Of a stretch of DNA of 64,000 nucleotides, positions 10,986 to 64,000 are shown in pieces; within the stretch, counting starts at the first letter, position 1; the number at the start of each line of letters is the position of its first letter. Source of the DNA: Terebella lapidaria (lineage: Eukaryota > Annelida > Polychaeta > Terebellida > Terebellidae); NCBI GenBank assembly GCA_949152475.1, contig OX424562.1, forward strand, positions 40,782,157 to 40,846,156, read 5' to 3'. The translations under genes and the position numbers were made by a program. The notes below the pieces were generated by a model, which searched no databases, was not told where the DNA came from, and saw nothing but the letters and a program-made list of their open reading frames with translations.

Positions 10986-13209
10986 AGCTTACCGGCCCTT
11001 TGGGCCGATAAGCTATTGTCATGGTATTTCGTCCGTCGTCCGTCGTCCGTCGTCCGTCCGTCGTCCGTCGTCCGTCGTCCGTCGTCCGTCCGTCGTCCGT
11101 CCGGGTCTGTAACTTTTTTTTGACGTGATGAATTTCCCCATAAATTTGTCAGAACATACCTTGGGCCAGTATCTAAAGACGTTTTTTTAATTTTTTTGAT
11201 TGAATCGTTTTTGCCGATTTGGCGGCCATTTTTGACGAAAAATTGCCAATTTTGGACTTTGGAGGCCATTTTCTCAAAAACTGTCTGATCAGTTTTGAGA
11301 TTTTTGTTTCAAAACATTCCTCTTATGTACCTTTATGATGTGTATAAGTTTCGTTGCCCTTGAATCGCCGGTCTGCGTGTGGCGGCCATTTTGATTTTTT
11401 GACGGGTCGGCGAAAAAAAATTTTTTTGTCCCAAATCAAGTCACTATTCGTTTTGAGCCATTTCCAGCAAAAAAAAAAAAAAAAATTTTTTTGCCCATTG
11501 AAAAATTTTTTGGACTTAGAAAATTTCCCCCAATTTTCCTTCATAATGGGAGCTGTGCAGAGTAAACTCATAGAACACTTGAAGATAGAGCCTAAGTAAT
11601 GGCACATTCAAATGGGAAACCATATATTGCGGTTTGAGTGATGACCTTGAATTTGACCTTCAATGACCTTGGAAGGTCAAAACGACCTTTTTTTGTCGAA
11701 AAATGACCAATTCTGGACTTGATGGCCATTTTCTCAAAAACTGTCTGATCAGTTTTGAGATTTTTGTTTTAAAACATTCCCCTCATGTACCTCTATGATG
11801 TGTATAAGTTTCGTTGCCCTTGAATTGCCGGTCTGCGTGTGGCGGCCATTTTGATTTTTTGACGGGTCGGCGAAAAAAAATTTTTTTGTCCCAAATCAAG
11901 TCACTATTCGTTTTGAGCCATTTCCAGCAAAAAAAAAAAAATTTTTTTTTGGCCATTGAAAAATTTTTTGGACTTAGAAAATTTCACCCAACTTTCCTTC
12001 ATAATGGGAGCTGTGCAGAGTAAACTCATAGAACACTTGAAGATAGAGCCTAAGTAATGGCACATTCAAATGGGAAACCATATATTGCGGTTTGAGTGAT
12101 GACCTTGAATTTGACCTTCAATGACCTTGGAAGGTCAAAACGACCTTTTTTTGTCGAAAAATGACCAATTCTGGACTTGATGGCCATTTTCTCAAAAACT
12201 GTGTGATCAGTTTCGAGATTTTTGTTTTAAAACATTCCCCTCATGTACCTCTATGACGTGTATAAGTTTAGTTACCCTTGAATCGCCTGTCTGCGTGTGG
12301 CGGCCATTTTAAATTTTTGACGGGTCAGCAAAAAAAATTTTTTTTGTCCAAAATCAAGTCACTATTCATTTTGAGCCATTTCCAGCAAAAAAAAAATTTT
12401 TTTGGCCATTGAGAAATTTTTTGGACTTGGAAAATTTCACCCAATTTTTCCTTCATAATGGGAGCTGTGCGGAGTAAACTCATAGAAGACTTCAAAATAG
12501 AGCCTAAGTATTGGCACATTCAAATGGGAAATCATATAATGCGGTTTGAGTGATGACCTTGAATTTGACCTTCAATGATGGCCTTGTAGCGCATGACACA
12601 CCGGTACCAGCAAGATCACCGAAGTTAAGCAACGCTAGGCGTGGGTAATACATGGATGGGTGACCCTGTTTGTGCATTCACCTGCGCTGCTGTATGCTGT
12701 TCACCCAAACAGTATAATTGGGCACCTGGCAATAGACAGAGATGGCAATTGTGTATGCACAGTTTCCCTGCGCCAAATAATGGCTGCACATGGAGCTGTA
12801 TGCCTCCCAGGAGGTTGAGTATGTGTCGGAGTGAACAGGTCTGCCGGGGATAATAATTGTGCAGTCAGAGAGACCGACTTGAGTTGGTGATCCTAGACTA
12901 TATAAAATGCTCATTATTATAATGACCTTGGAAGGTCAAAAACGATGAAATTTGTCTTTGGTGGCCATTTTGTCTAAATCTATTCAGACAGTTTTTCTCA
13001 AAATCATGTATAAGATTCTCTTTATGTACCTTTGTGGTGTGTAATTTGATTTCGTACTATAGTCCATACAGAAAATGTGTTTCCAGCAACATTTACGAAC
13101 ATTTTTTGACGATTAGAGTTCAAGATCAGTGTAACAATGTATATGTTGGAAAATCAATACTCTGCGTTTCTCATGATTGCCGGTAAGCTACAGCACCCTT
13201 GGTGCTATG
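10986..13209 (+). mobile_element. Family B hairpin-ended element, copy 1
   Basis: The 5' terminus is the palindrome AGCTTACCGGCCC to GGGCCGATAAGCT at 10986-11014, followed by a CGTCC/CGTCGTC minisatellite. About three monomers of 461 bp follow; they are homologous to but diverged from the family A monomer. The 3' terminus at 13179-13209 is GCCGGTAAGCT, a short spacer, then hairpin AGCACC/GGTGCT and ATG. A 5S-derived SINE interrupts the last monomer. The 2224-bp copy is collinear with 36840-39974, which has about two more monomers. Confidence 0.7.
12579..12920 (+). mobile_element. 5S rRNA-derived SINE (SINE3-like), copy 1
   Basis: The first 95 bp resemble 5S rRNA. GATCACCGAAGTTAAGCAAC and TACATGGATGGGTGACC keep the internal A-box, intermediate element and C-box of a type 1 Pol III promoter. 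About 250 bp of body follow, ending in a short ATT-rich tail. AATGA flanks both sides (12574-12578 and 12921-12925), and the uninterrupted monomer reads TTCAATGACCTTGG, so the insertion is clean. It is not a functional 5S gene: the 3' half of 5S is replaced by SINE body. Confidence 0.65.
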
Positions 13210-16200
13210 TTCACAAGATATTTGGTTGTTAATGTGATCAGCAATACAGAGATTTCTGCACTTTTCCAAAATGTTACTCGGAACTGTCGTCCGTCGTTGT
13301 CCGTAGTCGTCGTCGTCGTCGTCCGTCAACAATTTTATCTTCAAAGTTTACGATCGAATTTTTCTGAAATTTTGCACAAAAATGCCTAAAAATATTTCGA
13401 GAGGGAGGTATTTTTTAGTTTTTTGATTTTCGCATTTTTTTCAAAATGGCAGCCGTTTTCGACGAAAAATGCCTGATTTTGGACTTTGGCGGCCATTTTC
13501 TCAAAATCTGTTCAGTAACTTTTTAGGTTACCGGACCTATGGTCCGATAACCTATTGGCATGGCGTTGCGTCCGTCGTCCGTCCGTCCGTCGTCCGTCCG
13601 TTCACATTTTTATCTTTAAAGTGTATGGTCCGATCTTTCTGAAATTTTGCACAAAAATACCTAAAAATATTTCCAGGAAAGGATTTTTTTAGTTTTCTGA
13701 TTTCCGCATTTTTTTCAAAATGGCGGCCAGGTTCGACGAAAAATGCCTGATTTTGGACTTTGGCGGCCATTCTCTCAAAATCTGTTCAGTAACTTTTTTT
13801 CTTTTTGATACATAACACTCCTCATAATTTATGTACCCCTGTGACATGTATAAATTTCGTTGCGCTTGAATCGTTCGAAGTGGGCCATTTTGGCCCAAAC
13901 TCGGCCGAAAGGGGACTTTCCCATGTTAAATTTTCCTATGCTTTATAATGGGACACATTAAGCCTAATATCTCACTTAATATTTAGATTAGAGACTAGGA
14001 ATCAATTGTGGACATATAGGAAATGATGTATGCTGAATATTCTCATGACCTTGAATTTGACCTCTGACCTCGGTTTCAAGGTCAGAGCACAAAATGTCTA
14101 ATATCTTGCTTATTATCGACTTTACAGCTTAGGAATCAATTGTGGACATATAGGAAATGATAAATGCCGAATATTCTGATGACCTTGAATTTGACCTTTG
14201 ACCTCATTTTCAAGGTCACAGGACAAAATGGCTAATATCTCACTTATTATCAATTTTACAGCTTAGGGATCAATTGTGGACATATAGGAAATGATATATG
14301 CTGAATATTCTCGTGACCTTGAATTTGACCTCTGACCTCGGTTTCAAGGTCAGAGCACAAAGTGTCTAATATCTCACTTATTATCAACTTTACAGCTTAG
14401 GAATCAATTGTGGACATATAGGAAATGATATATGCCGAACAATCTGATGACCTTGAATTTGACGTTTGACCTCATTTTCAAGGTCACAGAACAAAATGGC
14501 TAATATCTCACTTATTATCGATTTTACAGCTTAGGGATCAATTGTGGACATGAAGGAAATGATATATGCTGAATATTCCCGTGACCTTGAATTTGACCTC
14601 TGACTTCAGTTTCAAGGTCAGAGCACAAAATGGCTAATATCTCGCCTATTATTGACTTTACAGCTTAGGAATCAATTGTGGACATGATAGGAAATGATAT
14701 ATGCCGAATATTCTAATGAACTTGAATTTGACCTTTGACCTCATTTTCAAGGTCACAGGAAAAGTGGCTAATATCTCGCTTCTTATCGACTTCACAGCTT
14801 AGGAATCAATTATGAACATATAGGAAATGATATATGCAGATTATTACCATGACATTGAATTTGACCTTTGACCTCATTTCCAAGGTCACAGGAAAAGTGG
14901 CTAATATCTCGCTTCTTATCGACTTTACAGCTTAGCAATCAATTATGAGCATATAGGAAATGATATATGCAGATTATTACCATGACATTGAATTTGACCT
15001 TTGACCTCATTTTCAGGATCTCAGGACAAAATGGCTAATATCTCGGTTTTTCTCGACTTTACAGCTTAGCAATCAATTGTGAACATATAGAAAATGATAC
15101 ATTCTGAACATTGGCATGACCTTAAACTTGACCTTTGACCTCATTTTCAAGGTCGCAGGACAAAATGGCTAATATCTCGTTTATTATCGACTTTACAGTT
15201 TAGGAATCAATTATGAACATATAGGAAATGATATATGCTGAACATTGCTATGACCTTGAATTTGACCCTTGACCTCATTTTCAAGGTCAGAGAACAAAAT
15301 GGCTAATATCTCGCTTTTTCCCGACTTTACAGCTTAGCAGTCAATTGTGAACATATAGAAAATGATATATTCTGAACATTGTCAGGACCTTGAACTTCAC
15401 CTCTGGCCTAATTTTCAATGTCACAGGACAAAATGGCTAATAGCACGCTTATTATCTACTTTACAGCTTAGGAATCAATTATGAACATATAGGAAATGAT
15501 ATATGCTGAATATTGCTATGACCTTGAATTCGATCTTTGACCTCATTTTCAAGGTCACAGGACATAATGGCTAATATCTCGCTTATTATTGACTTTACAG
15601 CTTAGGAATCAATTGTGGACATACTAGAAATGACATACTGTATGCCGAATATTATCGTGTCCTTGAATTGACCAATAACCTTATTTTCAAGGTCACGGGA
15701 CAAAATACTAATATCTGAAATATCTATTGTCCGGTAACCTTTCTTAGCCCTTGGGCTAATTTTTTTTTTATTGATGCATTTTTTTTTATTGATAACACTC
15801 CTCATATGTACCCCTGTGACATGTATAAATTTCGTTGCGCTTGAATCGCTCGAAATGGGCCATTTTGGACCCAAACTCGGCCCAAATGGGACTTTCCCAT
15901 GTTAAATTCTCCTATGCTTTATAATGGGACACATTAAAGCCTAATATCTCACTTAATATTGAGATTAGAGACTAGGAATCAATTGTGGACATATAGGAAA
16001 TGATATATGCTGAATATTGTCGTGACCTTGAATTTGACCTCTGACCTTGGTTTCAAGGTCAGAGCGGCCGTTTTAGTCGAAAAAATGGCCAATTTTGGAC
16101 TTTGACGGTCGTTTTCTCAAAATCTGTTCAGTAACTTTTTTTTCTTATTGATGAAAAACACTCCTCATATGTACCCCTGTGACATGTATAAATTTCGTTG

Positions 16201-18345: not shown

Positions 18346-21120
18346 TTTTTTCTTTTCTTCCGCTGTTTTTGTTTCTGCGCGATAACTCGAGAACGCCTTG
18401 ACGGATCGACTTGAAATTTTCCCCACTGTCCAGACATTTGTAGATGTGCTGTATAGTTTTGAAGCCGGATCCGAGGTCTGTGACGATGAAATTAGGGTCA
18501 TCTTTTGGACTTCGTTTCCGCGCGATAACTCAAAAACCATTTGGGCAATGGCTGCAAAACTTTGCACGGAGGTTCATATATCAACAGGGAAGAACCCTAT
18601 CGATTTTGGGATCAATCCGTCAAACGACCTTTGACCTAGAGGTCGGAAGATTTTTCGCCCAGTCATCCTTGAGGTTTCCTGCATATCTCGGAAACGGTGT
18701 GTCGTAGAACAAAACGGACGTTATTTTTGGACTCGTCGCCCTAGACAAACATTTCCACCTTGACCTAGAAACAAACATTTTGACCTTGACCTTGAATTTT
18801 TCTGCTGAGTTGGCATTTTTCGTTTTCGTCGATATCTCGAAAACGGTGCGTCGTAGAGCGAAACGGACGTTATTTTCAGACTCGTCGCCCTAGACAATCA
18901 TGTCTAAGGGGTATTAGGGATGACCTTTGACCTTGACTTTGAATTTTTCTGCCGAGTCGGCATTTTTCGTTTTCGTCAATATCTCGGAAATGGTGCGTCG
19001 TAGAGTGAAACGGACGTTATTTTCGGACTCGTCGCCCTAGACAAACATGTCTAAGCGGTATTAGGGATGATCTGTGACCTTGAACTTGAATTTTTCTGCT
19101 GAGTCGGCATTTTTCGTTTTCGCTGATATCTCGGAAACGGTGCGTCGTAGAGCGAAACGGATGTTATTTTCGGTCTCGTTGCCCTAGACAAATATGTCTA
19201 AGGGGTATTAAGGCATTTCAGCAGAAATGCCTTTATGGTTTGTCAATTTTTTTTTTTTTTTTTCATTTTTCGGTTTCCGCACGATAACTTCAGATTGCCT
19301 CGGTGTATCTTTGCCAAATTTTCACTGCTGGTCAGAAATGTTGTGTGGAAGGAGCCTATTGTTTTTGAGCCGGCTCCAGGGTCCGTGAGGATGAAATCAA
19401 TGTTTCTGATTTCCGCATGATAACTCAAAAAGTATTATGGCAATGACCGTGCAACTTTGCATGGAGGTTCGTATATCACCAGGGAAGAAGCCTATTGATT
19501 TTGAGGCCGATTCGTCAAACGACCTTAGACCTAGGGCTCGAAATAATTTTAGCTGAGTCATCCTTGAGGCTCTCATGCATATCTCGGAAACGGTGCATCG
19601 TAGAGCGAAACAGACGTTATTTTCGGACTCGTCATCCTAGACAAATATGTCTAATGGGTATTATGGATGACCTCTGACCTTGACCCTAACATTTTTCGCT
19701 GAGTTGGCATTTTTCATTTTTGTCGATATCTCGGAAACGGTGCATCATAGAGCGAAACGGACGTTATTTTTGGACTCGTCGCCCTGGACAAACATGTCTA
19801 AGCGGTATTAGGGATGATCTGTGACCTTGAACTTGAATTTTTCTGCTGAGTCGCCATTTTTCTTTTTCGCTGATATCTCGGAAACGGTGCGTCGTAGAGC
19901 GAAACGGATGTTATTTTCGGTCTCGTTGCCCTAGACAAATATGTCTAAGGGGTATTAAGGCATTTCAGCAGAAATGCCTTTATGGTTTGTCAATTTTTTT
20001 TTCCACTTTTCGGTCCGCACGATAACTTCAGATTGCCTTGGTGTATCTTTGCCAAATTTTCACTGCTGGTCAGAAATGTTGTGTGGAAGGAGCCTATTGT
20101 TTTTGAGCCGGCTCCAGGGTCCGTGAGGTCCGTGAGGATGAAATCAATGTTTCTGATTTCCGCATGATAACTCAAAAAGTATTATGGCAATGACTGTGCA
20201 ACTTTGCATGGAGGTTCATATATCACCAGGGAAGAAGCCTATTGATTTTGAGGCCGATTCGTCAAACGGCCTTTGACCTAGGGCTCGAAATAATTTTAGC
20301 TGAGTCATCCTTGAAGGCTCTCATGCATATCTCGGAAACGGTGCATCGTAGAGCGAAACGGACGTTATTTTCGGACTCATCATTCTAGACAAACATGTCT
20401 AGAGGCATTATGGATGACCTTTGACCTTGACCTTAAATTTTTTCGCTGAGTCGTCATTTTTCGTTTTCGTCGATATCTCGGAAACGGCGCGTCATAGAGC
20501 GAAACGGACGTTATTTTCTGACTCGTGGCCCTAGACAAACATTTCCAACGGGTATTAGGGATGACCTTTGACCTTGACCTTAAATTTTTTCGCTGAGTCG
20601 TCATTTTTCGTTTTCATCGATATCTCGGAAACGGTGCATCATGGAGTGAAACGGACGTTATTTTCGGACCCGGGCCCTAGACAAACATATCTAAGGGGTA
20701 CTCAGGAATGAACTTTGACCTTGACCTTAAATTTTTTCGCGTAGTCGACATTTTTCATTTTCATCGATATCTCAGAAACGGTGTGTCGTAGAGTGAAACA
20801 GGCGTGAATTTTGGACTCGTGGCCCTAGACAAACATATCTAAGGGGTACTAGAGAAAAACTTGGACCTTGACCTGAAATTTTTTTCGCCAAGTCGGCATT
20901 TTTCATTTTCGTCGATATCTCGGAAAATGTGCATCGTAGACCGAAACGGAAGTTACTTTCGGACTTGTTGGCCCTAGACAAACATATCTGAGGGGTATTA
21001 CATGTAGGAATGAACTTTGACCTTGACCTGAAATGTTTTGCCGAATCGGCATTCTTCATTTTGATCAATTCCTCGGAAACGGTGCGACCTAGAGCAAAAC
21101 AGACATGAGACAGATAGTCG
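18346..21120. repeat. Family C repeat region with a monomer of about 146 bp
   Basis: It begins TTTTTTCTTTTCTTCCGC, and CGATAACTCGAGAACGCC is shared with the family D element at 61.2 kb. Monomers from about 18740 repeat GATATCTCGGAAACGGTGCG, GAGCGAAACGGACGTTATTT, CCTAGACAAACATGTCTAAG and TGACCTTTGACCTTGACCTT. AAGGCATTTCAGCAGAAATG hairpins occur at 19210 and 19957 and may be family C termini. Short reading frames here are repeat by-products. Confidence 0.65.
19040..20540. repeat. 747-bp tandem duplication including a hairpin and T-tract
   Basis: Two consecutive blocks of about 747 bp are nearly identical. Matching points include the hairpin AAGGCATTTC/GAAATGCCTT at 19210-19233 and 19957-19980, the following TTTATGGTTTGTCAATTTTT, and TCAGAAATGTTGTGTGGAAG. 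The second copy has a short internal duplication (GTCCGTGAG). High similarity suggests a recent event. Confidence 0.75.
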
Positions 21121-31302: not shown

Positions 31303-32693
31303 TTAACCCAAGGGTTAAGATAGGTTACCAGACAATTTTGGTTGAAGCAAGACAGGTTAGATATGACATTCAATTTAACCATTTGAGGTCATCATCTTGA
31401 ACTTCAATGTCACCTTCAAGTGTGCAGCATATAAACTTGTATATGTTCAAAATACAAATACAAGGTCTATCTACAAGTATTTTGTCTTTAGACAAAATGT
31501 ACACATTTCAGTCCAAAATTTTTTTTCAAAGGGTGAACATTTTTTATTTTTGCCTAGAAATGACCCAAAAGGGATAGTAATGTTATCTGAACTTCGGTCA
31601 ATACATACATGTACATAGTACATACAATGCGATTTGAGGCAAAAAAAAATTTTCCCGCCGACCCGTCAAAAATTCAAAATGGCCGCCACACGGAGACCGG
31701 CGATTCAAGGGCAACAAAACTTACACACATCATAAACATAAAGGTACATAAGGGGATTTTAAAGAATAAAAATCTCAAAACTGATCAGACAGTTTTCGAG
31801 AAAAGACAGACCAGGTGCAAATTTGGGCATTTTTCGACCCCAGAATGGTCGGGTCATCCAAGGTCATCCAAGGTCAAATTTTAGGTCATCACACAAGTCG
31901 CCATGACTTCCCATTTGAAAGTGCCAATTTCTAAGCTCTACTGTATCTTCAGGCGTTCGAGGAATACAGTCTTGGCAGCTCCCATTATGAAGGAAAAAAG
32001 TGCCGAAAATTTTCTAAGTCCAAATTTTTTTTCAAAGGGTGAACAATTTTTTTGTCCAGAAATGGCCCAAAATGGATAGTACTAGTAATGGGATTTGGGC
32101 TGAAAAATTATTTTTTTTTCTGATCAGACAGTTTTTGAGAAAATGGCCGCCAATACTAAAATACCTCCTTCTCGAATTATTTCAAGGTATTTCAAATTTT
32201 TTTCAAAGGGTGAAATTTTTTTTTTCGCTTAGAAATGGCCCAAAATGGATAGTAAAGCGATCTGGGGCGAACATTTTTTTTTTTGCCGACTCGTCAAAAA
32301 TTCAAAATGGCCGCCACACGCCCACGGAGATCGGCGATTCAAGGGCAACAAAACTTATACACGTCACAAAGGTATGTAAGAGGAATCTTTTGAAACCAAA
32401 AACTAAAAACTGATCAGACAGTTTTTGAGAAAATGGCCGCCAAAGTTCAAAATCGACCATTTTTCGACGAAAACGGCCGCCATTTTGAGAAAAAATTGAA
32501 AAATAAAAAAACTAAAAAATACCTCCTTCTTGAATTATTTTAAGGTATCTTTTCCCAAATTTTCAGAAAGATTGGACCGTACACTTTAAAGATAAAAATG
32601 TGGACGGTACACTTTAAAGATAAAAATGTGGACGGACGGACGACGGACGCAACGTGACAGCAATAGGCTATCGGACCATAGGTTCGGTAACCT
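31303..32693 (-). mobile_element. Family A element, inverted, with 455-bp monomers
   Basis: On the minus strand the 5' palindrome is at 32693-32665 (AGGTTACCGAACC then GGTCCGATAGCCT), followed by a CGTCC remnant and two to three diverged 455-bp monomers. The 3' terminus is at 31332-31303 with hairpin TTAACCC/GGGTTAA. Its 3' end faces the 5' end of the 30520-31298 copy with only four bases between them, so the two copies are head-to-tail. Confidence 0.65.
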
Positions 32694-36839: not shown

Positions 36840-39800
36840 AGCTTACCGGCCCTTTGGGCCGATAAGCTATTGTCGTGGTATTTCGTCCGTCGTCCGTCGT
36901 CCGTCGTCCGTCCGTCGTCCGTCGTCCGTCGTCCGTCGTCCGTCCGGGTCTGTAACTTTTTTTTGACGTGATGAATTTCCCCATAAATTTGTCAGAACAT
37001 ACCTTGGGCCAGTATCTAAAGACGTTTTTTTAATTTTTTTGATTGAATCGTTTTTGCCGATTTGGCGGCCATTTTTGACGAAAAATTGCCAATTTTGGAC
37101 TTTGGAGGCCATTTTCTCAAAAACTGTCTGATCAGTTTTGAGATTTTTGTTTCAAAACATTCCTCTTATGTACCTTTATGATGTGTATAAGTTTCGTTGC
37201 CCTTGAATCGCCGGTCTGCGTGTGGCGGCCATTTTGATTTTTTGACGGGTCGGCGAAAAAAAAATTTTTTGTCCCAAATCAAGTCACTATTCGTTTTGAG
37301 CCATTTCCAGCAAAAAAAAAAAAAAAAAATTTTTTTGCCCATTGAAAAATTTTTTGGACTTAGAAAATTTCACCCAATTTTCCTTCATAATGGGAGCTGT
37401 GCAGAGTAAACTCATAGAACACTTGAAGATAGAGCCTAAGTAATGGCACATTCAAATGGGAAACCATATATTGCGGTTTGAGTGATGACCTTGAATTTGA
37501 CCTTCAATGACCTTGGAAGGTCAAAACGACCTTTTTTTGTCGAAAAATGACCAATTTTGGACTTGATGGCCATTTTCTCAAAAACTGTCTGATCAGTTTT
37601 GAGATTTTTGTTTTAAAACATTCCCCTCATGTACCTCTATGATGTGTATAAGTTTTGTTGCCCTTGAATTGCCGGTCTGCGTGTGGCGGCCATTTTGATT
37701 TTTTGACGGGTCGGCGAAAAAAAAATTTTTTGTCCCAAATCAAGTCACTATTCGTTTTGAGCCATTTCCAGCAAAAAAAAAAAAAAAAAATTTTTTTGCC
37801 CATTGAAAAATTTTTTGGACTTAGAAAATTTCACCCAATTTTCCTTCATAATGGGAGCTGTGCAGAGTAAACTCATAGAACACTTGAAGATAGAGCCTAA
37901 GTAATGGCACATTCAAATGGGAAACCATATATTGCGGTTTGAGTGATGACCTTGAATTTGACCTTCAATGACCTTGGAAGGTCAAAACGACCTTTTTTTG
38001 TCGAAAAATGACCAATTTTGGACTTGATGGCCATTTTCTCAAAAACTGTCTGATCAGTTTTGAGATTTTTGTTTTAAAACATTCCCCTCATGTACCTCTA
38101 TGATGTGTATAAGTTTTGTTGCCCTTGAATTGCCGGTCTGCGTGTGGCGGCCATTTTGATTTTTTGACGGGTCGGCGAAAAAAAATTTTTTTGTCCCAAA
38201 TCAAGTCACTATTCGTTTTGAGCCATTTCCAGCAAAAAAAAAAAAATTTTTTTTTGGCCATTGAAAAATTTTTTGGACTTAGAAAATTTCACCCAATTTT
38301 CCTTCATAATGGGAGCTGTGCAGAGTAAACTCATAGAACACTTGAAGATAGAGCCTAAGTAATGGCACATTCAAATGGGAAACCATATATTGCGGTTTGA
38401 GTGATGACCTTGAATTTGACCTTCAATGACCTTGGAAGGTCAAAACGACCTTTTTTTGTCGAAAAATGACCAATTCTGGACTTGATGGCCATTTTCTCAA
38501 AAACTGTGTGATCAGTTTCGAGATTTTTGTTTTAAAACATTCCCCTCATGTACCTCTATGATGTGTATAAGTTTAGTTACCCTTGAATCGCCTGTCTGCG
38601 TGTGGCGGCCATTTTAAATTTTTGACGGGTCAGCAAAAAAAATTTTTTTTTCAAAAATCAAGTCACTATTCGTTTTGAGCCATTTCCAGCAAAAAAAAAA
38701 AAATTTTTTTTTGGCCATTGAAAAATTTTTTGGACTTAGAAAATTTCACCCAATTTTCCTTCATAATGGGAGCTGTGCAGAGTAAACTCATAGAACACTT
38801 GAAGATAGAGCCTAAGTAATGGCACATTCAAATGGGAAACCATATATTGCGGTTTGAGTGATGACCTTGAATTTGACCTTCAATGACCTTGGAAGGTCAA
38901 AACGACCTTTTTTTGTCGAAAAATGACCAATTCTGGACTTGATGGCCATTTTCTCAAAAACTGTGTGATCAGTTTCGAGATTTTTGTTTTAAAACATTCC
39001 CCTCATGTACCTCTATGATGTGTATAAGTTTAGTTACCCTTGAATCGCCTGTCTGCGTGTGGCGGCCATTTTAAATTTTTGACGGGTCAGCAAAAAAAAT
39101 TTTTTTGTCCAAAATCAAGTCACTATTCGTTTTGAGCCATTTCCAGCGAAAAAAAAAAAAAAATTTTTTTGGCCATTGAGAAATTTTTTGGACTTAGAAA
39201 ATTTCACCCAATTTTTCCTTCATAATGGGAGCTGTGCGGAGTAAACTCATAGAAGACTTCAAAATAGAGCCTAAGTATTGGCACATTCAAATGGGAAATC
39301 ATATAATGCGGTTTGAGTGATGACCTTGAATTTGACCTTCAATGACGGCCTTGTAGCGCATGACACACCGGTACCCGTAAGATCACCGAAGTTAAGCAAC
39401 GCTAGGCGTGGGTAATACATGGATGGGTGACCCTGTTTGTGCATTCACCTGCGCTGCTGTATGCTGTTCACCCAAACAGTATAATTGGGCACCTGGCAAT
39501 AGACAGAGATGGCAATTGTGTATGCACAGTTTCCCTGCGCCAAATAATGGCTGCACATGGAGCTGTATGCCTCCCAGGAGGTTGAGTATGTGTCGGAGTG
39601 AACAGGTCTGCCGGGGATAATAATTGTGCAGTCAGAGAGACCGACTTGAGTTGGTGATCCTAGACTATAAAATGCTCATTATTATAATGACCTTGGAAGG
39701 TCAAAAACGATGAAATTTGTCTTTGGTGGCCATTTTGTCTAAATCTATTCAGACAGTTTTTCTCAAAATCATGTATAAGATTCTCTTTATGTACCTTTGT

Positions 39801-39974
39801 GATGTGTAATTTGATTTCGTACTATAGTCCATACAGAAAATGTGTTTCCAGCAACATTTACGAACATTTTTTGACAATTAGAGTTCAAGATCAGTGTAAC
39901 AATGTATATGTTGGAAAATCAATACTCTGCGTTTCTCATGATTGCCGGTAAGCTACAGCACCCTTGGTGCTATG
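36840..39974 (+). mobile_element. Family B hairpin-ended element, copy 2
   Basis: The 5' palindrome AGCTTACCGGCCC/GGGCCGATAAGCT (36840-36868), a CGTCC minisatellite, and about five 461-bp monomers (repeated GCCGGTCTGCGTGTGGCGGC at about 37208, 37668 and 38129) lead to the 3' terminus at 39944-39974. It is inserted in the T-tract of AAATTCGTTTTTT in a satellite monomer, which resumes after 39974 as T's and GAATTCAACCAAC. At 3135 bp it exceeds copy 1 by 911 bp, matching two extra monomers. It carries the same SINE at the same position. Confidence 0.75.
39346..39685 (+). mobile_element. 5S rRNA-derived SINE (SINE3-like), copy 2
   Basis: Almost identical to 12579-12920 and in the same monomer position. 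It has AATGA on both sides (39341-39345 and 39686-39690) and GATCACCGAAGTTAAGCAAC in the 5S-like head. The shared insertion site means the SINE was present before the two family B copies separated. Confidence 0.65.
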
Positions 39975-43168: not shown

Positions 43169-46100
43169 AGACGTGGCTCGAGGATTAGGATTTTGTCAGA
43201 AACTATGTCTAAGTTGGTCAAAATCCCCAAAAAGTAAATTTCGATAAGTTTTTATTTCAATGGATCATATCTCGGAAATGAAATCTTTAGCCAGTCTGGA
43301 ACTAATGCTGATTGATACTTCTAATATGTTGCTTCAAGGTAATATATTAGTTAGGGTGGCTCAAGGATTAGGATTTTGTCAGAAAATATGTAAATTTGGT
43401 CAAAATACCCAAAAAGTGAATTTTGCTAAGTTTTTATTTCAATGCGTCATATCTCGGAAAGGAAATCTTGAGCCAGTCTTGAACTAATGCTTATTGATAC
43501 TTCTAATATGCTGCTTCAAAGAAATATATTAGTTAGGGTGGCTCAAGGATTAGGATTTTGTTAGAAAATATGTAAAGTTGGTCGAAATCCCCAAAAAGTG
43601 AATTTTGATAAGTTTTTATTTCAATGGGTCATATCTCGAAAACGAAATCTTGAGCCAGTCTTGAACTAATGCTGATTGATACTTCTAATATGTTGGTTTA
43701 AGGTAGTACATTAGTTAGGGTGGCTCAAAGATTAGGATTTTGTCAGAAAATATGTAAAGTTGGTCAAAATACCCAAAAAGTGAATTTTGCTAGGTTTTTA
43801 TTTCAATGCGTCATATCTCGGAAATGAAATCTTGAGCCAGTCTTGAACTAATGCTGATTGATACTTCTAATATGTTGCTTCAAAGAAATATATTAGTTAG
43901 GGTGGCTCAAGGATTAGGATTTTGTCAGAAAATATGTAAAGTTGGTCAAAATACCCAAAAAGTGAATTTTGCTAAGTTTTTATTTCAATGCGTCATATCT
44001 CGGAAATGAAATCTTGAGCCAGTCTTGAACTAATGCTGATTGATACTTCTAATATGTTGCTTCAAAGGAATGTATTAGTTAGGGTGGCTCTTGAGCCAGT
44101 CTTGAACTAATGCTGATTGATACTTCTAATATGTTGATTTAAGGTAGTACATTAGTTAGGGTGGCTCAAAGATTAGGATTTTGTCAGAAAATATGTAAAG
44201 TTGGTCAAAATACCCAAAAAGTGAATTTTGCTAACTTTTTATTTCAATGCGTCATATCTCGGAAATGAAATCTTGAGCCAGTCTTGAACTAATGCTGATT
44301 GATACTTCTGATATGTTGCTTCAAAGAAATATATTAGTTAGGGTGGCTCAAGGATTAGGATTTTGTCAGAAAATATGTAAAGTTGGTCAAAATACCCAAA
44401 AAGTGAATTTTGCTAAGTTTTTATTTCAATGCGTCATATCTCGGAAATGAAATCTTGAGCCAGTCTTGAACTAATGCTGATTGATACTTCTAATATGTTG
44501 CTTCAAAGGAATGTATTAGTTAGGGTGGCTCAAGGATTAGGATTTTGTCAGAAAATATGTAAAGTTGGTCAAAATACTCAAAAAGTGAATTTTGCTAAGT
44601 TTTTATTTCAATGCGTCATATCTCGGAAACGAAATCTTGAGCCAGTCTTGAACTAATGCTGATTGATACTTCTAATATGTTGCTTCAAAGAAATATATTA
44701 GTTAGGGTGGCTCAAGGATTAGGATTTTGTCAGAAAATATGTAAAGTTGGTCAAAATACCCAAAAAGTGAATTTTGCTAAGTTTTTATTTCAATGCGTCA
44801 TATCTCGGAAACGAAATCTTGAGCCAGTCTTGAACTAATGCTGATTGATACTTCTAATATGTTGCTTCAATGAAATATATTAGTTAGGGTGGCTCAAGGA
44901 TAAGGATTTTGTCAGAAAATATATAAAGTTGGTCAAAATACCCAAAAAGTGAATTTTGCTAAGTTTTTATTTCAATGCGTCATATCTTGGAAACGAAATC
45001 TTGAGCCAGTCTTGAACTAATGCTGATTGATACTTCTAATATGTTGCTTCAAAGAAATATATTAGTTAGGGTGGCTCAAGGATTAGGATTTTGTCAGAAA
45101 ATATGTAAAGTTGGTCAAAATCCCCAAAAAGTGAATTTTGCTAAGTTTTTATTTCAATGCGTCATATCTCGGAAATGAAATCTTGAGCCAGTTTTGAACT
45201 AATGCTGATTGATACTTCTAATATGTTGCTTCAAAGAAATATATTAGTTAGGGTGGCTCAAGGATTAGGATTTTGTCAGAAAATATGTAAAATTGGTCAA
45301 AATCCCCAAAAAGTGAATTTTGCTAAGTTTTTATTTCAATGCGTCATATCTCGGAAACGAAATCTTGAGCCAGTCTTGAACTAATGCTGATTGATACTTC
45401 TAATATGTTGCTTCAAAGAAATATATTAGTTAGGGTGGCTCAAGGATTAGGATTTTGTCAGAAAATATGTAAAGTTGGTCAAAATACCCAAAAAGTGAAT
45501 TTTGCTAAGTTTTTATTTCAATGCGTCATATCTCGGAAACGAAATCTTGAGCCAGTCTTGAACTAATGCTGATTGATAATTCTAATATGTTGCTTCAACG
45601 AAATATATTAGTTAGGGTGGCTCAAGGATTAGGATTTTGTCAGAAAATATATAAAGTTGGTCAAAATACCCAAAAAGTGAATTTTGCTAAGTTTTTATTT
45701 CAATGCGTCATATCTTGGAAACGAAATCTTGAGCCAGTCTTGAACTAATGCTGATTGATACTTCTAATATGTTGCTTCAAAGAAATATATTAGTTAGGGT
45801 GGCTCAAGGATTAGGATTTTGTCAGAAAATATGTAAAGTTGGTCAAAATCCCCAAAAAGTGAATTTTGCTAAGTTATTATTTCAATGCGTCATATCTCGG
45901 AAATGAAATCTTGAGCCAGTTTTGAACTAATGCTGATTGATACTTCTAATATGTTGCTTCAAAGAAATATATTAGTTAGGGTGGCTCAAGGATTAGGATT
46001 TTGTCAGAAAATATGTAAAGTTGGTCAAAATCCCCAAAAAGTGAATTTTGCTAAGTTTTTATTTCAATGCGTCATATCTCGGAAACGAAATCTTGAGCCA

Positions 46101-46682
46101 GTCTTGAACTAATGCGATTGATACTTCTAATATGTTGGTTTAAGGTAGTACATTAGTTAGGGTGGCTCAAAGATTAGGATTTTGTCAGAAAATATGTAAA
46201 GTTGGTCAAAATACCCAAAAAGTGAATTTTGCTAAGTTTTTATTTCAATGCGTCATATCTCGGAAATGAAATCTTGAGCCAGTCTTGAACTAATGCTGAT
46301 TGATACTTCTAATATGTTGCTTCAAAGAAATATATTAGTTAGGGTGGCTCAAGGATTAGGATTTTGTCAGAAAATATGTAAAGTTGGTCAAAATACCCAA
46401 AAAGTGAATTTTGCTAAGTTTTTATTTCAATGCGTCATATCTCGGAAATGAAATCTTGAGCCAGTCTTGAACTAATGCTGATTGATACTTCTAATATGTT
46501 GCTTCAAAGGAATGTATTAGTTAGGGTGGCTCTTGAGCCAGTCTTGAACTAATGCTGATTGATACTTCTAATATGTTGGTTTAAGGTAGTACATTAGTTA
46601 GGGTGGCTCAAAGATTAGGATTTTGTCAGAAAATATGTAAAGTTGGTCAAAATACCCAAAAAGTGAATTTTGCTAAGTTTTT
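43169..46682 (+). repeat. 182-bp satellite array, plus orientation
   Basis: About nineteen monomers, with 182-bp spacing clear at 44474, 44656, 45202, 45384 and 45566. A truncated junction where GGTGGCTC runs directly into TTGAGCCAGTC recurs at about 44090 and 46530. A higher-order pattern of monomer variants repeats around each. The array stops in the T-tract at 46678-46682, where a family A element is inserted. Confidence 0.85.
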
Positions 46683-48962
46683 AGGTTACCGGACCTATGG
46701 TCCGATAACCTATTGCCGTCACGTTGCGTCCGTCGTCCGTCCGTCGTCCGTCGTCCGGCGTCCGGCGTCCGTCGTCCGTCCACAGCTGTATCTTTAAAGT
46801 TTACAGGCGGATTTTTCTGAAATTTTGCACAAAAATGCCTAAAAATATTTCAAGAGTGGGTTTTTTTTTAGTTTTTTGATTTTCGCATTTTTCTCAAAAT
46901 GGCGGCCATTTTTGACAAAAAATGGCCAATTTTGGACTTTGGCGGCCATTTTCTCAAAAACTGTCTGATCAGTTTTGAGATTTTTGTTTCAAAAGATTCC
47001 CCTTATGTACCTTTATGATGTGTATAAGTTTTGTTGCCCTTGAATCGCCGGTCTCCGTGTGGCGGCCATTTTGAATTTTTGATGGGTCAGCGAAAAAAAT
47101 TTTTTTTGCCCCAAATCGCGTTACTATCCATTTCGGGCCATTTCTAGGCAAAAAAAAATTTTTCACCCTTTGAAAAAAATTTTGGACTTAGAAAATTTTC
47201 GGCACCTTTTTCCTTCATAATGGGAGCTGCCCGGACTGTATTCATAGAACGCTTAAAGATAGAGCTTAGATATTGGCACTTTCAAATGGGAAGTCATATA
47301 TGGCGACTTGTGTGGTGACCTTGAATTTGACCTTGGATGACCTTGAAAGGTCAAAATAGCCATTTTTGGGTCGAAAAATGCCCAAATTTGCAGCTTTTCT
47401 GTCTTTTCTCGAAAACTGTCTGATCAGTTTTGAGATTTTCATTTTCAGAAGATTCCCCTTATGTACCTTTATGATGTGTATGAGTTTTGTTGCCCTTGAA
47501 TCGCCGGTCTCCGTGTGGCGGCCATTTTGAATTTTTGACGGGTCGGCGAAAAAATTTTTTTTTGCCCCAAATCGCGTTACTATCCATTTCGGGCCATTTC
47601 TAGGCAAAAAAAATTTTTTCACCCTTTGAAAAAAATTTTGGACTTAGAAAATTTTCGGCACTTTTTTCCTTCATAATGGGAGCTGCCCGGACTGTACTCA
47701 TAGAACGCTTAAAGATAGAGCTTAGATATTGGCACTTTCAAATGGGAAGTCATATATGGCGACTTGTGTGGTGACCTTGAATTTGACCTTGGATGACCTT
47801 GAAAGGTCAAAATAGCCATTTTTGGGTCGAAAAATGCCCAAATTTGCAGCTTTTCTGTCTTTTCTCGAAAACTGTCTGATCAGTTTTGAGATTTTCGTTT
47901 CAGAAGATTCCCTCTATGTACCTTTATGATGTGTATAAGTTTTGTTGCCCTTGAATCGCTGGTCTCCGTGTGGCGGCCATTTTGAATTTTTGACGGGTCG
48001 ACGAAAAAAAAATTTTTTGCCCCAAATTGCGTTACTATCCATTTTGGGCCATTTCTAGGCAAAAAAAATTTTTTCACCCTTTGAAAAAAATTTGGGACTG
48101 AAAATTTTCGGCACTTTTTTCCTTCATAATGGGAGCTGCCTAGACTGTACTCATAGAATGCTTGAAGATAGAGCTTAGAAATTAGCACTTTCAAATGGGA
48201 AGTCATATATGAAGACTTGTGTGGTGACCTTGAATTTGACCTTGGATGACCTTGAAATGTCAAAACAGCCATTTTTGAGTCGAAAAATGCCCAAATTTGC
48301 ACCTTGTTTGTCTTTAATCGAAAACTGCCTGATCACTTTTGAGATTTTTATTTCAAAACATAGTAATTGGGTTTTTTGACATGATGTGTATAAATATGTA
48401 TATAGTGTATAAAGTGCCTTGAATTGCTCAAAAGGCTAGAAATTTAAGCTGAATAGGCCCCAAATTTAATTTTTGGTCGTTTTTCTTCAAATTTATCTGA
48501 TCAGTTTTGAGATTTTTGTTATAAAACATGCTAATTGGGGTCCCTGACATTGTGTATAAAGATGGAGTGCTTTGAATTGCTTAAAAGGCCCCTTGAGTGT
48601 GTAAATTGGCCTCTACAGCCAAAAAATGTTTGTAGGTATAGCTGGAATTGGAAGTCATATACATGTATACCACATATATATGTGGCTTTTTTGGGTGACG
48701 TTGAACTTGACGTCAGATGACATTGAGTGCTATATCTCAGTGTCACGTCCAACAAGAAATGTGTAAATTTCGTTTATAGACAAAAGACTTGTAGATAGAC
48801 CTTGTATTTGTATTTTGAACATACATGAATACAAGGTTATATGCTGCACACTTAATGATGACATTGAAGTTCACGAAGATGATTGGTTTATCTTAACGTC
48901 ATATCTCACCTGTCCTGTTTCAACTAAAGCTGTCCGGTAACCTATCTTAGCCCTTGGGCTAA
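46683..48962 (+). mobile_element. Complete family A element in a satellite monomer
   Basis: The 5' palindrome AGGTTACCGGACC/GGTCCGATAACCT (46683-46711), CGTCC minisatellite, CAAAATGGCGGCC segment, three 455-bp monomers and the 650-bp tail lead to the 3' terminus at 48932-48962. The host monomer reads GCTAAGTTTTT on the left and TTTTATTTCAATGCGTC on the right. Intact monomers read GCTAAGTTTTTATTTCAATG, so the insertion point is a T5 tract with at most T4 duplicated. Length is 2280 bp and no protein-coding region is seen. Confidence 0.8.
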
Positions 48963-49464
48963 TTTTATTTCAATGCGTCATATCTCGGAAATGAAATCTT
49001 GAGCCAGTCTTGAACTAATGCTGATTGATACTTCTAATATGTTGCTTCAAAGAAATATATTAGTTAGGGTGGCTCAAGGATTAGGATTTTGTCAGAAAAT
49101 ATGTAAAGTTGGTCAAAATCCCCAAAAAGTGAATTTTGCTAAGTTTTTATTTCAATGCGTCATATCTCGGAAATGAAATCTTGAGCCAGTCTTGAACTAA
49201 TGCTGATTGATACTTCTAATATGTTGCTTCAAAGGAATGTATTAGTTAGGGTGGCTCAAGGATTAGGATTTTGTCAGAAAATATGTAAAGTTGGTCAAAA
49301 TACCCAAAAAGTGAATTTTGCTAAGTTTTTATTTCAATGCGTCATATCTCAGAAACGAAATCTTGAGCCAGTCTTGAACTAATGCTGATTGATACTTCTA
49401 ATATGTTGCTTCAAAGTAATATATTAGTTAGGGTGGCTCAAGGATAAGGATTTTGTCAGAAAAT
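48963..49464 (+). repeat. 182-bp satellite array, continuation
   Basis: The interrupted monomer resumes and two to three further plus monomers lead into the right long inverted repeat. Confidence 0.85.
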
Positions 49465-50029
49465 ACGTAAAGTTGGTCGAATTCGAAAAAAAAAAAGAAC
49501 TTCCTTAAGTTTTTATTTCAATGGGTCATACCTCGAGAATAGAATTTTGAGCCAGTCTTGGACTGATGCTGATTGATATATCTAATATGTATCTTCGAAC
49601 TAGTATAGGATTTGAGGTGGCTCAAGAATTAGAATATCAAAAAAGTTATGTTAAAATGGACAAATGGCCAGCTTTGAACCAGCGTTGGGTGCTGATACAG
49701 TAAAGCTAACAGGCATCACCAGCCACACAACCCTCCGTGTGGCATAGCAGGGGGTGGGGTGAGGGGAGGAGGGGCGGGGGGAGGGGGGGGGTTGGTACCA
49801 CACCTACAATAAAGCAAAAAAGTATATTTCGCGTAATGATAAGCAGATCTAGATATACCAAAAATATTTTACCAGGTCAAATGGTGATACATTCAGCAGT
49901 GCCACTCAAGTCTTGATTCATCATGAAATTATGTCTGAATAAGTAGCCAGACTGAATAAGTAGCCAGCTCCTGGTTACTTATTCGATTTGAATAAGGAAC
50001 TAGTAACAAGTAGCTAACTTCACGTCGGT
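49465..50029 (-). repeat. Right long inverted repeat of the 182-bp satellite block
   Basis: Reverse complement of 33296-33860, ending outward in GTAGCTAACTTCACGTCGG. The G-rich tract at about 49745-49790 is longer and more interrupted than the C-rich tract of the left arm. Apart from that tract the arms differ at few positions. Confidence 0.8.
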
Positions 50030-51692: not shown

Positions 51693-51815
51693 TTCAAGTT
51701 AACAAGTTGAATATTCAAGTTAACTGGTTAACAAGTTGAATATTCAAGATGACAAATTGAATATTCAAGATGACAACTTGAATATTCAAGAGGATAAATT
51801 GAATATTCAAGATGA
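51693..51815. repeat. TTGAATATTCAAG minisatellite
   Basis: Five to six units of TTGAATATTCAAG joined by short linkers such as ATGACAAG. It belongs to the same minisatellite as 33016-33083 and 53088-53241. Confidence 0.8.
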
Positions 51816-51819
51816 CGTA

Positions 51820-53087: not shown

Positions 53088-53241
53088 TTGAATATTCAAC
53101 TTGCTATCTTGAATATTCAACTTATTATCTTGAATATTCAAGTTGCATTATGTTGAATATTCAACTTGTCATCCTGAATATTCAACTTGACATCTTGAAT
53201 ACTAAGTATTCAACATGTCATCTTGAATATTCAAGATAAAA
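53088..53241. repeat. TTGAATATTCAAG minisatellite, outer right array
   Basis: Seven units with the TTGAATATTCAA palindrome and varied linkers, ending at AAAAAAAAGAAGTCG and TAATAGGCT (53261-53269), which mirrors the left outer end at 32972-33015. Confidence 0.8.
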
Positions 53242-61000: not shown

Positions 61001-64000
61001 TGAGAGAGGACTATCCTCGAGGATCCCGAAGAGCGGACGGTAGTCAATAACTTTACACGTGTTCAACAAGGTAAAGCTTCTGACTTGTAGAGATTTCATG
61101 GCTGTAACGGAATAAGTAACATTGGTTTTATTAGGCATCCCGATTGAAAATCGGGAGGCCTTATGTTTTTGTCTGTTTTTTTTTTTTTTTTTTGCTTTTT
61201 TTTTTTTTTTTTTTTTTTTTTCTTCCGCCGTTCGGTTTCCGGATCATAACTCTTGAACGCCTTAATCTATCTTTCCGAAATTTTCACAGCTCATCCGAAA
61301 TACTTTGCTCCTAACCCCTATTGTTTTTCGTCGAGACCCGAAATCCAAGATGGCCGCCAGCGGCCATTTTGAAAAAAAAAATCGGGCGATTCCTGTCAAT
61401 GTCATAATTTGATTCAGGCAATTTCCAGGGGGAAAAAATTTTTTGGGTGTATTTTTTTTTGGACTTAGAATTTTTCCCTCACCTGCCCCCATGCAGATGT
61501 AATACTGTGACTGAGCCATGCTACTGTATTCACTGACTTCAGCCTGCATGTCCAGCATGAGGCTAGGCTCTGCCCTCTCAGCCAGTGCAGTTTATGAGAG
61601 CCCTGCTCAGTAATGCCTGTGATAAGGCAATACCCCCCCCCCCCCTCTCCCTCCCCCACCTCCACTGTCAGCCAGTCTAATCTGCATATGAATGTAGCAA
61701 TGTATCAGTGACTTGTATGCACTGCCCCTCTTCCCCCCCCCCCCCCCCCCTCTCCTGTCCCCTCACCCCAGTTTACTATACTAACACCAACAAGTTGGAA
61801 CAATGCCCTCCTTCCCTTTCTAAAGAAAACAATAGGTGGTTATATAATGATGACCCAAACTGAAGATAACAGCTTTGAAGGTCTGCCTGGGCCTTGGTTG
61901 CCGGTCAATTGTTCATTGTATTCAGTTAAAACAGCACTGTGTTTATCTGGATGAAACTACATGCATTGTTTTGTTTTCTAGCTGTATTTCACATGCAGTG
62001 ACCAAATTATCATTGTTTTACTTAGTCAGAACCCAGAATAATTTCCTTTTTGCTTGTATTGTGAATGTCTGTCATGTCTGTACATTTAATACCTATTGAG
62101 ATTAAAACAAATATCTGATGGACATTTGTCTAGTGAGCAACTGCTATAATTTGAACTCTCACTCCCACCTGTGTTCAATAATCCTGGTATATGTAGTATA
62201 ATAACAGTCAAGTTTCACCATTAGAAAAGAAAAGAAAAATTGGGGGATGCCACAAAGCCTATAGGCTTTTATGTCTAGTTGATTAAGTCTTATTGGCCAC
62301 AATAAAAATAATTATTACAAGAAACATTTATTATTGGGTTCAACAATGTAAAGGTTCTGGGGCCCAGACGAGTCGACAGGTACCCAAATTCGGGGCGGGT
62401 CATACAATTACCTGGATCGGAATTTTGTTACTCGTATTTGAGAACAAATAAAGATATAGTTTTGAATATTTGTGATAAACACTAGTAAAATCACAAGAAT
62501 GACAAGGAAATCATCAGGAAAAAAAACGATAGTTTTATGAGGTCATGACATTGTGATCTTTCTCAAACTTGAAAATACTGGTAATTACTGACGAAACAAA
62601 TAATATGTGTCAAAGATCAATGTCTGGCGTTTACGTGTTACAAATTGCTTCAGTGAGTATCATTCAAATTTTGCTATATATTTGGACGGGTCGGGTCAGA
62701 CGACACAGGTACCCGGTTCGGAAATTTCCGACTCACTCGGGCCCTAAAAAGTTCTATCCAGTCATGACTAACCGAATAGGTTATCATTAGTTTTACTAGT
62801 TAAGTCTATTATTGACCACAATAAAAATAGTTACATGACAAGAAAATAGTTACATGACAAATTTATTGGCCCAACAAGGTATAGATTCTGCCCAGTAGAG
62901 TTACAATATGGCCACAACATATATGTACCAAATCAAATACAATATTCAAGGGTTTTTAAATAGTTCTGTGCAAACATTTTCGAAGCTCTTCCTTTGAGGC
63001 CAGTGGCCCTTGTTACTCAATAATACTGCAATAATTTGCGTTATTTTAGACAAAATTCATAAACATGACAGGACATGTAGTTCAACGTGACACATGACAA
63101 AATTATTCACAAATTTCTAAACTACCGGTATTTACTGTGAAAAAAGGCACAGAATACATATTGAATTGTTCATCTACCAAAAATTACTTATACGGCCTAG
63201 ATATATACATGTAGACGGGTTAACAGAGAAAAGTACAGGTTATAATTGATTTGAATGATCCTATTTTCCCGCCAAACTGGCCAATTTGATTCTATTGGAA
63301 CATGACGGTCGAATACAATATAAAAATAAGCGGCAAATACATAAGTTATCATTCAAAATAAAATCCCCCGCATGAATTTTGGCAATCTAAATTCCAAAGA
63401 TAGAAATTATTAATAGAAAAAAATATATCGCTCGTACCATTTTTGAAGTGAAATATTCCAAAGACAGAAAATTTAATATTAAATGTAAAAAAATTTCGCT
63501 CCCACGTACCATTTTTTTCGGACAAAAATCCATAGACCAACTTTATAAATTGGTGTGGCCTAAAACCTCTTGTACTAAATCTGTTAAAACAATCTCTTCA
63601 ATATGTCTGACAGTATTTTCTACGTTCTAATCCCAATATCCATGATATTGTGTGACTCAGTAGAGTGGAATTGTCTCGGGTCATCTCCTTGTTATTGACA
63701 CTCCGGATGAGGGCTCAGAGGGTTGCAGCTACTAGTGTATTTTAAAGAATGTATTAAGCGCTAAAATATTAGGGAACTAAGGGAAGTAATATGATCTGGT
63801 TACCTTGAATTTGACCTGGGATGACCTTCCGATGTGAAGCTATTGAACTATTGAGCTGATTTTGTGTAGCTGATAACCCCAGTGATAAAAGGAAATGTGC
63901 CAATAAGGTGTGTGATAAGCAGATACAACCATGTCACCAATAGAGACTGCAGAACATCAAGTTATTCATTTACAGACACGAGTGGGACTCGCACCTGATA
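55097..64000 (+). CDS. PDCD7: PDCD7 / U11-U12 snRNP 59K homologue, 3' end beyond window
   Basis: Exons by GT-AG sites and phase: 55097-55897, 56050-56178, 56291-56380, 56522-56653, 56712-56886, 57218-57330, 57714-57837, 58017-58104 and 63976 to the window edge, giving 559 codons so far. The ATG has A at -3 and an in-frame TGA two codons upstream. Residues about 75-145 are rich in Pro, Gly and Arg (RPPPPPGPPPSPFPP). From about 255 on the product is charged and helical, with coiled-coil-like stretches such as LLNQERQQAEVRRLE and ILGEVRRKHLDAKRGQDLL. FRQYY-type PYRQYYEAAHHSIENLIAIR leads across the last intron to HEWDSHLI, matching the vertebrate C-terminal RHDWDQYLVP region. Known family role: protein of the U11/U12 di-snRNP of the minor spliceosome. 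Intron donors look U2-type. The 5.9-kb last intron holds transposons. Confidence 0.88.
60429..60442 (+). promoter_or_regulatory. RFX X-box-like motif in a GC-rich intronic zone
   Basis: GTTGCCACGGCGAC differs at one position from the RFX consensus GTNRCCNNRGYAAC. It begins a GC-rich, CpG-rich stretch (60430-61080) otherwise unusual for this window. The open frames in that stretch overlap on both strands and match nothing recognised. A promoter or CpG-island role is speculative. Confidence 0.25.
61133..62266 (+). mobile_element. Family D hairpin-ended element in PDCD7 intron 8
   Basis: The 5' end AGGCATCCCGATT forms a hairpin with AATCGGGAGGCCT. Long T-tracts follow, then TTCCGCCGTTCGGTTTCCGG, shared with family C. 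The 3' end is GGGATGCC, a 4-base spacer, then hairpin AAAGCC/GGCTTT (about 62244-62269). It has the same logic as families A and B: a 5' palindrome, a 3' inverted copy of its first bases and a terminal hairpin, flanked by T-rich sequence. Length is about 1.13 kb. Poly-C tracts occur at 61631-61644 and 61735-61750. Confidence 0.6.

Follow-up and report, generated by a model that had tools for sequence, protein, structure and literature searches.

HINEs are non-autonomous Helentrons. As far as the available sections of PMC4067079 describe them, HINE-Mo and DINE-1 elements are deletion derivatives of Helentrons that encode a Rep/helicase with a C-terminal endonuclease, the palindromic subterminal inverted repeats (subTIRs) of HINE-Mo lie 2-4 nt from the 5' end, and TT is the target; the same is observed or proposed below for family A. 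The distance from the 3' subTIR to the end differs, being 38-60 bp in HINE-Mo according to these sections and about 20 nt here. The serine of Rep motif 2 is considered there as a diagnostic signature of Helentrons. The same work reports proto-Helentron-Pi from Phytophthora infestans, which has a 5' TT and a 3' CTAG and is inserted between A and T, like family D. However, D is non-autonomous, measures 1.15 kb and carries a left palindrome and a subTIR.

A close described relative is Cg_HINE from the oyster Crassostrea gigas (PMC7492417, in the sections available). It associates a 5' subTIR with a nearby complementary repeat, a GTCC-type microsatellite, a satellite-like central array, then a 3' subTIR followed by a palindrome, and it occupies T-rich targets for which empty sites exist. 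Families A and B share all these traits, and the association of related flanks with exchanged arrays described in PMC7492417 is also seen here among A1, A2 and B. According to the same sections, satellite-like arrays were spread by HINEs in the oyster, and the authors could link no autonomous Helentron to these HINEs. More generally, no link between a HINE and a Helentron in molluscs was found in the accessible parts of PMC7492417, PMC4067079, PMC11136912, PMC12628747, PMC10294476 and PMC7992393. By comparison with Cg_HINE, family A has here a Helentron that shares both its ends and a 134-bp array, this comparison being one of descriptions and not of sequences. Finally, Helitron-like elements of oyster with subTIRs and a 5' inverted repeat mix Helitron and Helentron features, like D as far as descriptions can be compared, and were proposed as intermediates (PMC7992393, available parts).

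The window analysed here, 64,000 nucleotides of Terebella lapidaria (C8:40782157-40846156 of a 761.6-Mb genome), contains four families of hairpin-capped elements, A to D. The initial annotation attributed to A, B and D, and probably C, a single terminal design, i.e., an initial palindrome, a final reverse complement of the first bases followed by a separate hairpin, and a location in T tracts. This design is complete in A and B; it holds for D except at the 3' boundary and is only half present in C. Furthermore, D, and probably C to judge by its left end, do not belong to the T-tract design, D ending with CTAG and inserting at A^T. The proposed superfamily of four families is thus split into two terminal classes. 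The identification of A and B as HINEs is retained with high confidence on the basis of their ends, their empty sites and their copy number and, for A, of an autonomous element encoding a Rep, a helicase and an endonuclease. It is very probable that A and B are HINEs, that an autonomous Helentron carries the ends of A and that C and D form a second terminal class of CTAG type. A, B and D are additions to known kinds of elements and not a new kind. Family A is represented by the following features:

46679..46682, forward strand: TTTT directly 5' of the palindrome, recognized from T-run counts and the empty site
46683..46711, forward strand: left palindrome of A (5' subTIR and its complement), folding z -5.65, 10,859 exact copies in the genome
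46727..46780, forward strand: CGTCC-type microsatellite in the leader of A
46949..48355, forward strand: satellite-like tandem array, 455-bp, A1 type
48932..48962, forward strand: 3' subTIR of A, GTCCGGTAACCT, then the hairpin TTAGCCCTTGGGCTAA at the terminus; in the genome, 4,279 exact matches to the right end with TTTT
13525..15759, forward strand: A2-type HINE with the ends of A and a 134-bp array at 13964-15716
31303..32693, reverse strand: diverged copy of A whose 3' hairpin, TTAACCCTTGGGTTAA, is compensated

The left end of A at 46683-48962 and 13525-15759 is a 29-nt palindrome, AGGTTACCGGACC-TAT-GGTCCGATAACCT, and the first letters of the element at 46683 (A46683) are AGGTTACCGGACCTATGGTCCGATAACCT. 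Both copies share, at the 3' end, the hairpin TTAGCCCTTGGGCTAA and the repeat GTCCGGTAACCT, which is the reverse complement of the first 12 bases of A (12 matches out of 12), so that the annotated layout is found at both places; the last letters of A46683 are GTCCGGTAACCT-ATC-TTAGCCCTTGGGCTAA. The TTTT at 46679..46682 is most likely the real 5' terminus of A46683. The A1 and A2 types have identical kinds of ends and leaders that are 78% alike across 370 bases, A1 harbouring the 455-bp array. A re-formed 3' hairpin, TTCGGCCCTTGGCCTAA, marks a subfamily seen in the window (18316-18341) and in loci L040 and L049.

Two elements of the window belong to family B:

10986..13209, forward strand: B-type HINE with a 458-bp array; the right flank after GCTATG is only TT
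36840..39974, forward strand: B-type HINE inserted within the 182-bp repeat, with a 461-bp array

B begins with AGCTTACCGGCCCTTTGGGCCGATAAGCT and finishes with GCCGGTAAGCT-AC-AGCACCCTTGGTGCT-ATG, its ends having also been noted as AGCTTACC...GGTGCTATG. As annotated, both copies follow the layout of A with AGCTTACCGGCCC...AGCACCCTTGGTGCT, and 11 of the 12 bases of the subterminal inverted repeat match. Between A and B, two pairs of the left palindrome are altered on both arms, and the 3' repeat of B tracks the change at position 3. The compensating changes that had been claimed within hairpins are therefore real, and the reverse-strand copy of A provides another one (TTAGCCC/GGGCTAA versus TTAACCC/GGGTTAA, at 31303-31318). 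B is a sister family of A, the identity between B and A1 reaching 80% across 1.7 kb, and the concerted change of its ends suggests that B depends on a separate, although related, transposase.

Families D and C comprise the following features:

61131..62278, forward strand: D element with corrected boundaries, 5'-TTAGGCATCCC...TTATGTCTAG-3' at A^TT; one empty site (L040:2356-2180)
61133..61161, forward strand: left palindrome of D, folding z -5.71, 938 exact copies
62244..62268, forward strand: 3' subTIR of D, GGGATGCC, and hairpin, AAGCCTATAGGCTT, with CTAG six bases further on
19210..19233, forward strand: left hairpin of C, preceded by ATT
19957..19980, forward strand: second left hairpin of C, 747 bp from the first, in a region of 147-bp repeats

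D displays the left palindrome and, on its right side, the GGGATGCC repeat and the AAGCCTATAGGCTT hairpin that had been annotated at 61133-62266; the 3' boundary given there is wrong, and the element lies at A^TT, in no unbroken T tract. The joined flanks of D are 92% identical to the paralogous empty site of L040, including a 14-base gap, and TTTTATGTCTAGTT is thus part of the insertion. Three local copies of D have TTATGTCTAGTT in common and diverge after it, and 983 of the 1,022 exact right ends of D continue to CTAG (TTATGTCTAG). Both local left ends of D (window and L043) are preceded by ATT. The simplest reading is that D is a 5'-TT...CTAG-3' element inserted between A and T; its termini, with one empty site, are of the published proto-Helentron type and not those of a T-tract HINE. 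This corrected boundary separates two terminal classes that look alike as long as the comparison is limited to their hairpins.

The two annotated left hairpins of C are present. A right end (a second copy of GAAATGCCTT with at most one mismatch, then a hairpin) was found nowhere in the window. The leader of C (19247-19339) shares 74% identity with that of D over 97 aligned bases, and ATT precedes the left end in four of four copies; we infer that C belongs to the same 5'-TT...CTAG-3' class as D. A 147-bp tandem array (18683-21104) holds both left hairpins of C and, considering that they lie 747 bp apart within it, the end of C may have been duplicated along with the array.

Besides these families, a palindrome, CCCCGAAC-AAA-GTTCGGGG, was noticed in L077 (around 75-130), in L079 (minus strand) and in L062, where it adjoins a right end of A; TATGG follows it in L077 and L079, and in L079 it is also followed by GTCGTCC. 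It has the appearance of a left end belonging to another hairpin family, located inside and beside these elements. On the minus strand (27418-29469), the window also carries a gene for ankyrin repeats, which is split into two open pieces and includes a weak TPR stretch; its layout may resemble that of FEM-1 proteins. Furthermore, short arrays of 21-bp units with TTGAATATTCAAGA occur on either strand at 33017-33084, 51731-51816, 52318-52358 and 53085-53201.

Exact 34-mer left ends number 10,859 for A, 587 for B and 938 for D in the whole genome, and exact right ends 4,279 for A (with a pattern including TTTT), 1,557 for B and 1,022 for D, while control patterns read backwards gave 0 matches every time. 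Among the places listed for contig C1, a left end on the same strand lies 0.3-6 kb upstream of 33 of the 49 right ends of A, 36 of the 98 of B and 72 of the 99 of D; 9, 2 and 4 right ends have a left end on the wrong side, and 1, 0 and 0 have one on the opposite strand, respectively. This test was restricted to the span of the shorter list and took in 98 of the 100 left ends listed for A, 50 of 100 for B and 83 of 100 for D, as well as 50 of the 100 listed right ends of A. The left and right ends of A, B and D are real paired boundaries.

Folding, which had been proposed as a check for both ends, distinguishes only the left ones. The left palindromes of the four families, folded as single-stranded DNA, have z values of -5.3 to -5.9, and 0 of 200 shuffles was as good. 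By contrast, the 3' hairpins have z values of -1.2 (A), -1.9 (B), -1.7 (D) and -0.5 (the Helentron presented below), with 9 to 53 of 200 shuffles folding equally well. The right ends of A and B both carry a 6-bp stem of unexceptional folding energy. Since these hairpins are not unusually stable, the case for them is their conservation.

A46683 and the B element at 36840 interrupt 182-bp tandem repeats whose intact monomers in the window constitute the empty site. The blocks of this repeat (33690-36414, 43173-46532 and 48963-49632), in which both elements are inserted, include 77-bp partial duplications. Five T are present at the empty site of A46683; in the filled state, five T precede the element and four follow it. 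The empty sites of the B element are at 40981-41134 and 33744-33898. Filled sites exceed empty ones by four T at two sites and by five at a third. T runs were counted in the window and in 37 loci (L002-L008, L039-L068) picked by good left-end matches, overlaps being counted once. The run on the left of A ends is exactly five in 32 of 47 cases, four in 5 and six in 5, whereas that on the right is 4-13 in 20 of 21 cases and two in the remaining one. A T tract is present at A and at the B element of 36840, the right side of the B element of 10986 being only TT. As the run is nearly constant on the left and variable on the right, the best reading is that of a 5'-TTTT that is owned by the element and enters T^T, a TTTT target duplication being a less probable one. 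Out of 17 complete local copies of A or B, 5 have a true paralogous empty site; for 5 others the matches are confined to tail-to-head neighbours of the copy itself, and the other 7 have no match. Moreover, 6 of the 47 left ends of A are located directly behind a right end; such tandem copies are a known trait of rolling-circle elements (PMC7492417, sections available).

Searching with the profile PF14214 revealed at least 150 Rep places in the genome, many of them in open frames of 2,000-2,900 codons. One of the four Rep copies that were read over 14 kb each, C9:36049350, has an A-type 3' end. The ends of A, B and D are absent, at the mismatches allowed, from the 14 kb read for each of the three others (C8:33507938, C4:28743594 and C8:36722461). 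A generic search for a 5' palindrome with a 3' repeat and hairpin found none in these three copies or in the C9 stretch, with a reach upstream of the frame of 1.2, 1.4, 0 and 0.3 kb in the four stretches. Clusters of Rep-helicase frames of about 1,650-2,320 codons were observed at C6:36.42-36.61 Mb, C6:42.48-43.13 Mb and C14:31.4-32.7 Mb, and RGSPHAH was read in the Rep of a relative that is abundant.

The genome was searched with 2,411 bases spanning the C9 end. At 31 further places, the match ends at query positions 2334-2340, position 2334 being the final T of GGGCTAATTTT / TCCGGTAACCTTTCTAGCCCTTGGGCTAATTTT; this number leaves out C6:9136513, which ends at 2334 close to another match, and the pieces stopping inside the element. 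For 25 of the 32 right ends (that of the query included), a Rep match lies upstream on the same strand and no more than 40 kb away, the distance being 6.2-9.1 kb in 22 cases. This test used 36 of the 150 listed Rep matches, and the 7 unpaired ends were compared by eye with the whole list.

The exact left end of A, TTTTTAGGTTACCGGACCTTTGGTCCGATAACCTATTGCC, lies 12.0 kb upstream of the Rep match of the C2 copy, and no right end of A (up to 4 mismatches) occurs in the 8.2 kb from this left end towards the coding region. Counting C2, this left end is found at the predicted place in six of seven copies (C2, C16, C4, C5, C14 and C12), being missing there in the C10 copy. The full C2 unit (C2:13060048-13079243) measures 19,196 bp and, by subtraction of the ends, the length is 19.1-19.2 kb in C2, C4, C5, C12 and C14. 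The C16 copy is about 22 kb long and has no Rep match among those listed. Both ends were read as letters in C4 and C14 only, with flanks in which no clean empty site was seen by eye; the right end was read as letters in C9, C4 and C14 and corresponds elsewhere to the stop of the match. Ten places, with that of the query among them, have an autonomous 5' region that is 98-100% alike, and the movement of this element therefore looks recent. The left flanks of C4 and C5 are similar and resemble the leader of another HINE, so these two copies are possibly not independent. In the C9 copy, from which the 3' boundary was obtained, the left end of A was not found in the 5.3 kb upstream of the frame. 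As the C2 left end is about 8.2 kb before the frame, a distance estimated by analogy, that of C9 may be farther out than the sequence read. The 3' part of a frame resembling that of a non-LTR retrotransposon was seen by eye upstream of the C9 element (L078).

The C9 copy encodes DUF6570, Helitron_like_N and PIF1 domains in one frame of 2,526 codons (PF14214, 5.1e-28; PF05970, 1.9e-20), the open frame of the C2 copy having 2,517 codons. In C9, the one copy read for it, an Exo_endo_phos domain (PF03372, 9.3e-6, above the cut-off) follows in a different frame from the main one and corresponds to the C-terminal AP-type endonuclease of Helentrons. Within the main frame, a match to Herpes_teg_N (PF04843, 1.6e-5), which is not a model of the OTU-type cysteine protease, reaches 25.1 bits for a cut-off of 25 and falls to 21.4 bits with a longer query. 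The structure of Helraiser (PDB 7lcc) matches the Rep region with an E value of 6.7e-6, and Rep motif 2, FYRVEFQQRGSPHIH (FQQRGSPHIH), has the serine between G and P. By the features compared, the 19-kb element is a Helentron. An autonomous Rep/helicase element with the AGGTTACC ends of A, which the initial annotation had suggested searching for, thus exists, and it probably moves family A. Identity between the C2 Helentron (first 1.5 kb) and the A2 HINE at 13525 (first 1.15 kb) amounts to 88-92%, through the palindrome, the CGTCC microsatellite, the leader and the 134-bp array, of which this copy of the Helentron has 5.3 units. At the 3' end, the likeness concerns only the last 35 bases or so (C9 copy, by eye). 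A2 HINEs therefore look like the 5' module of the Helentron joined to its 3' terminus.

It could be asked whether these elements are instead MITE-like derivatives of cut-and-paste transposons, with imperfect terminal inverted repeats and a TTTT target duplication. The 4-5 additional T of the filled sites can be read as such a duplication, and older relatives of HINEs were first named MITEs (PMC4067079, available sections). However, on the right side the inverted repeat is subterminal and the hairpin is located outside it; T runs are nearly constant on the left (five in 32 of 47) while they vary on the right, which fits T owned by the element better; 6 of the 47 left ends of A lie directly behind a right end, and the coding element sharing the ends of A encodes a Rep/helicase. 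Altogether, a cut-and-paste origin appears extremely improbable. Another explanation is that the left end of A on the 19-kb copies belongs to a HINE hitch-hiking upstream of an unrelated Rep-helicase element, as the A2-like first 1.5 kb of the C2 copy and the distant C9 copy, devoid of a left end of A in the 5.3 kb read upstream, could suggest. This is unlikely: the Helentron has an A-type 3' end of its own, at which the matches of 31 other places stop, many of these places not belonging to the close C2-like subfamily, and the left end is common to six copies, five of which measure 19.1-19.2 kb. A common left end and a near-constant length indicate that the 19-kb unit is mobile in its entirety, irrespective of its origin, and it is possible that the Helentron acquired its 5' module by fusion.

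The initial annotation had considered A, B, C and D as one superfamily of T-tract HINEs driven by a single Rep-helicase. All four left palindromes are followed by bases resembling TATTG or TTATG, and homology is seen between A and B as well as between the leaders of C and D. Nevertheless, D ends with CTAG and is inserted at A^TT, and at an E value of 1e-5 A1 has matches in A2 and B and none in D or the C region. Furthermore, among the 12 Rep matches listed on contig C1, no exact left end of B (0 of 11 testable) or of D (0 of 9 testable) was found by eye in the 20 kb preceding the match on its own strand. One superfamily with one enzyme is accordingly very unlikely. As no partner of B or D was found in this partial search of one contig, a Rep-helicase source is supported for A only, and the claim of a single source for all four families is not upheld.

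The reading that we prefer for A and B is that of satellite-carrying, non-autonomous HINEs that would be mobile by rolling-circle transposition. The Rep-helicase of the Helentron would nick at the junction between T and the palindrome; one strand would then be peeled off until the 3' subTIR and the hairpin, where the process would stop. The copy would enter a T tract, the 5'-TTTT being supplied by the element. The A2 HINEs would be derivatives that kept the 5' module of the Helentron (palindrome, CGTCC microsatellite and 134-bp array) and its last 35 bases or so. More tentatively, two classes of rolling-circle elements of this genome, Helentrons with an endonuclease (T tract, hairpin at the terminus) and elements resembling proto-Helentrons (A^T, CTAG), could share one design made of a 5' palindrome and a subTIR, and the coding Helentron, which has the 134-bp array as its HINEs do, might drive the dispersal of the satellite.

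An abundant HINE family, A, is thus tied to a Helentron that has a long open frame, near-identical copies and an array in common with it. Two points are of particular interest, namely the link between a HINE and a Helentron, which is lacking in oyster, and the presence of a satellite array within an autonomous element. With a known donor, known ends and a known target, the way in which rolling-circle transposons and satellite DNA are linked can be tested directly here.
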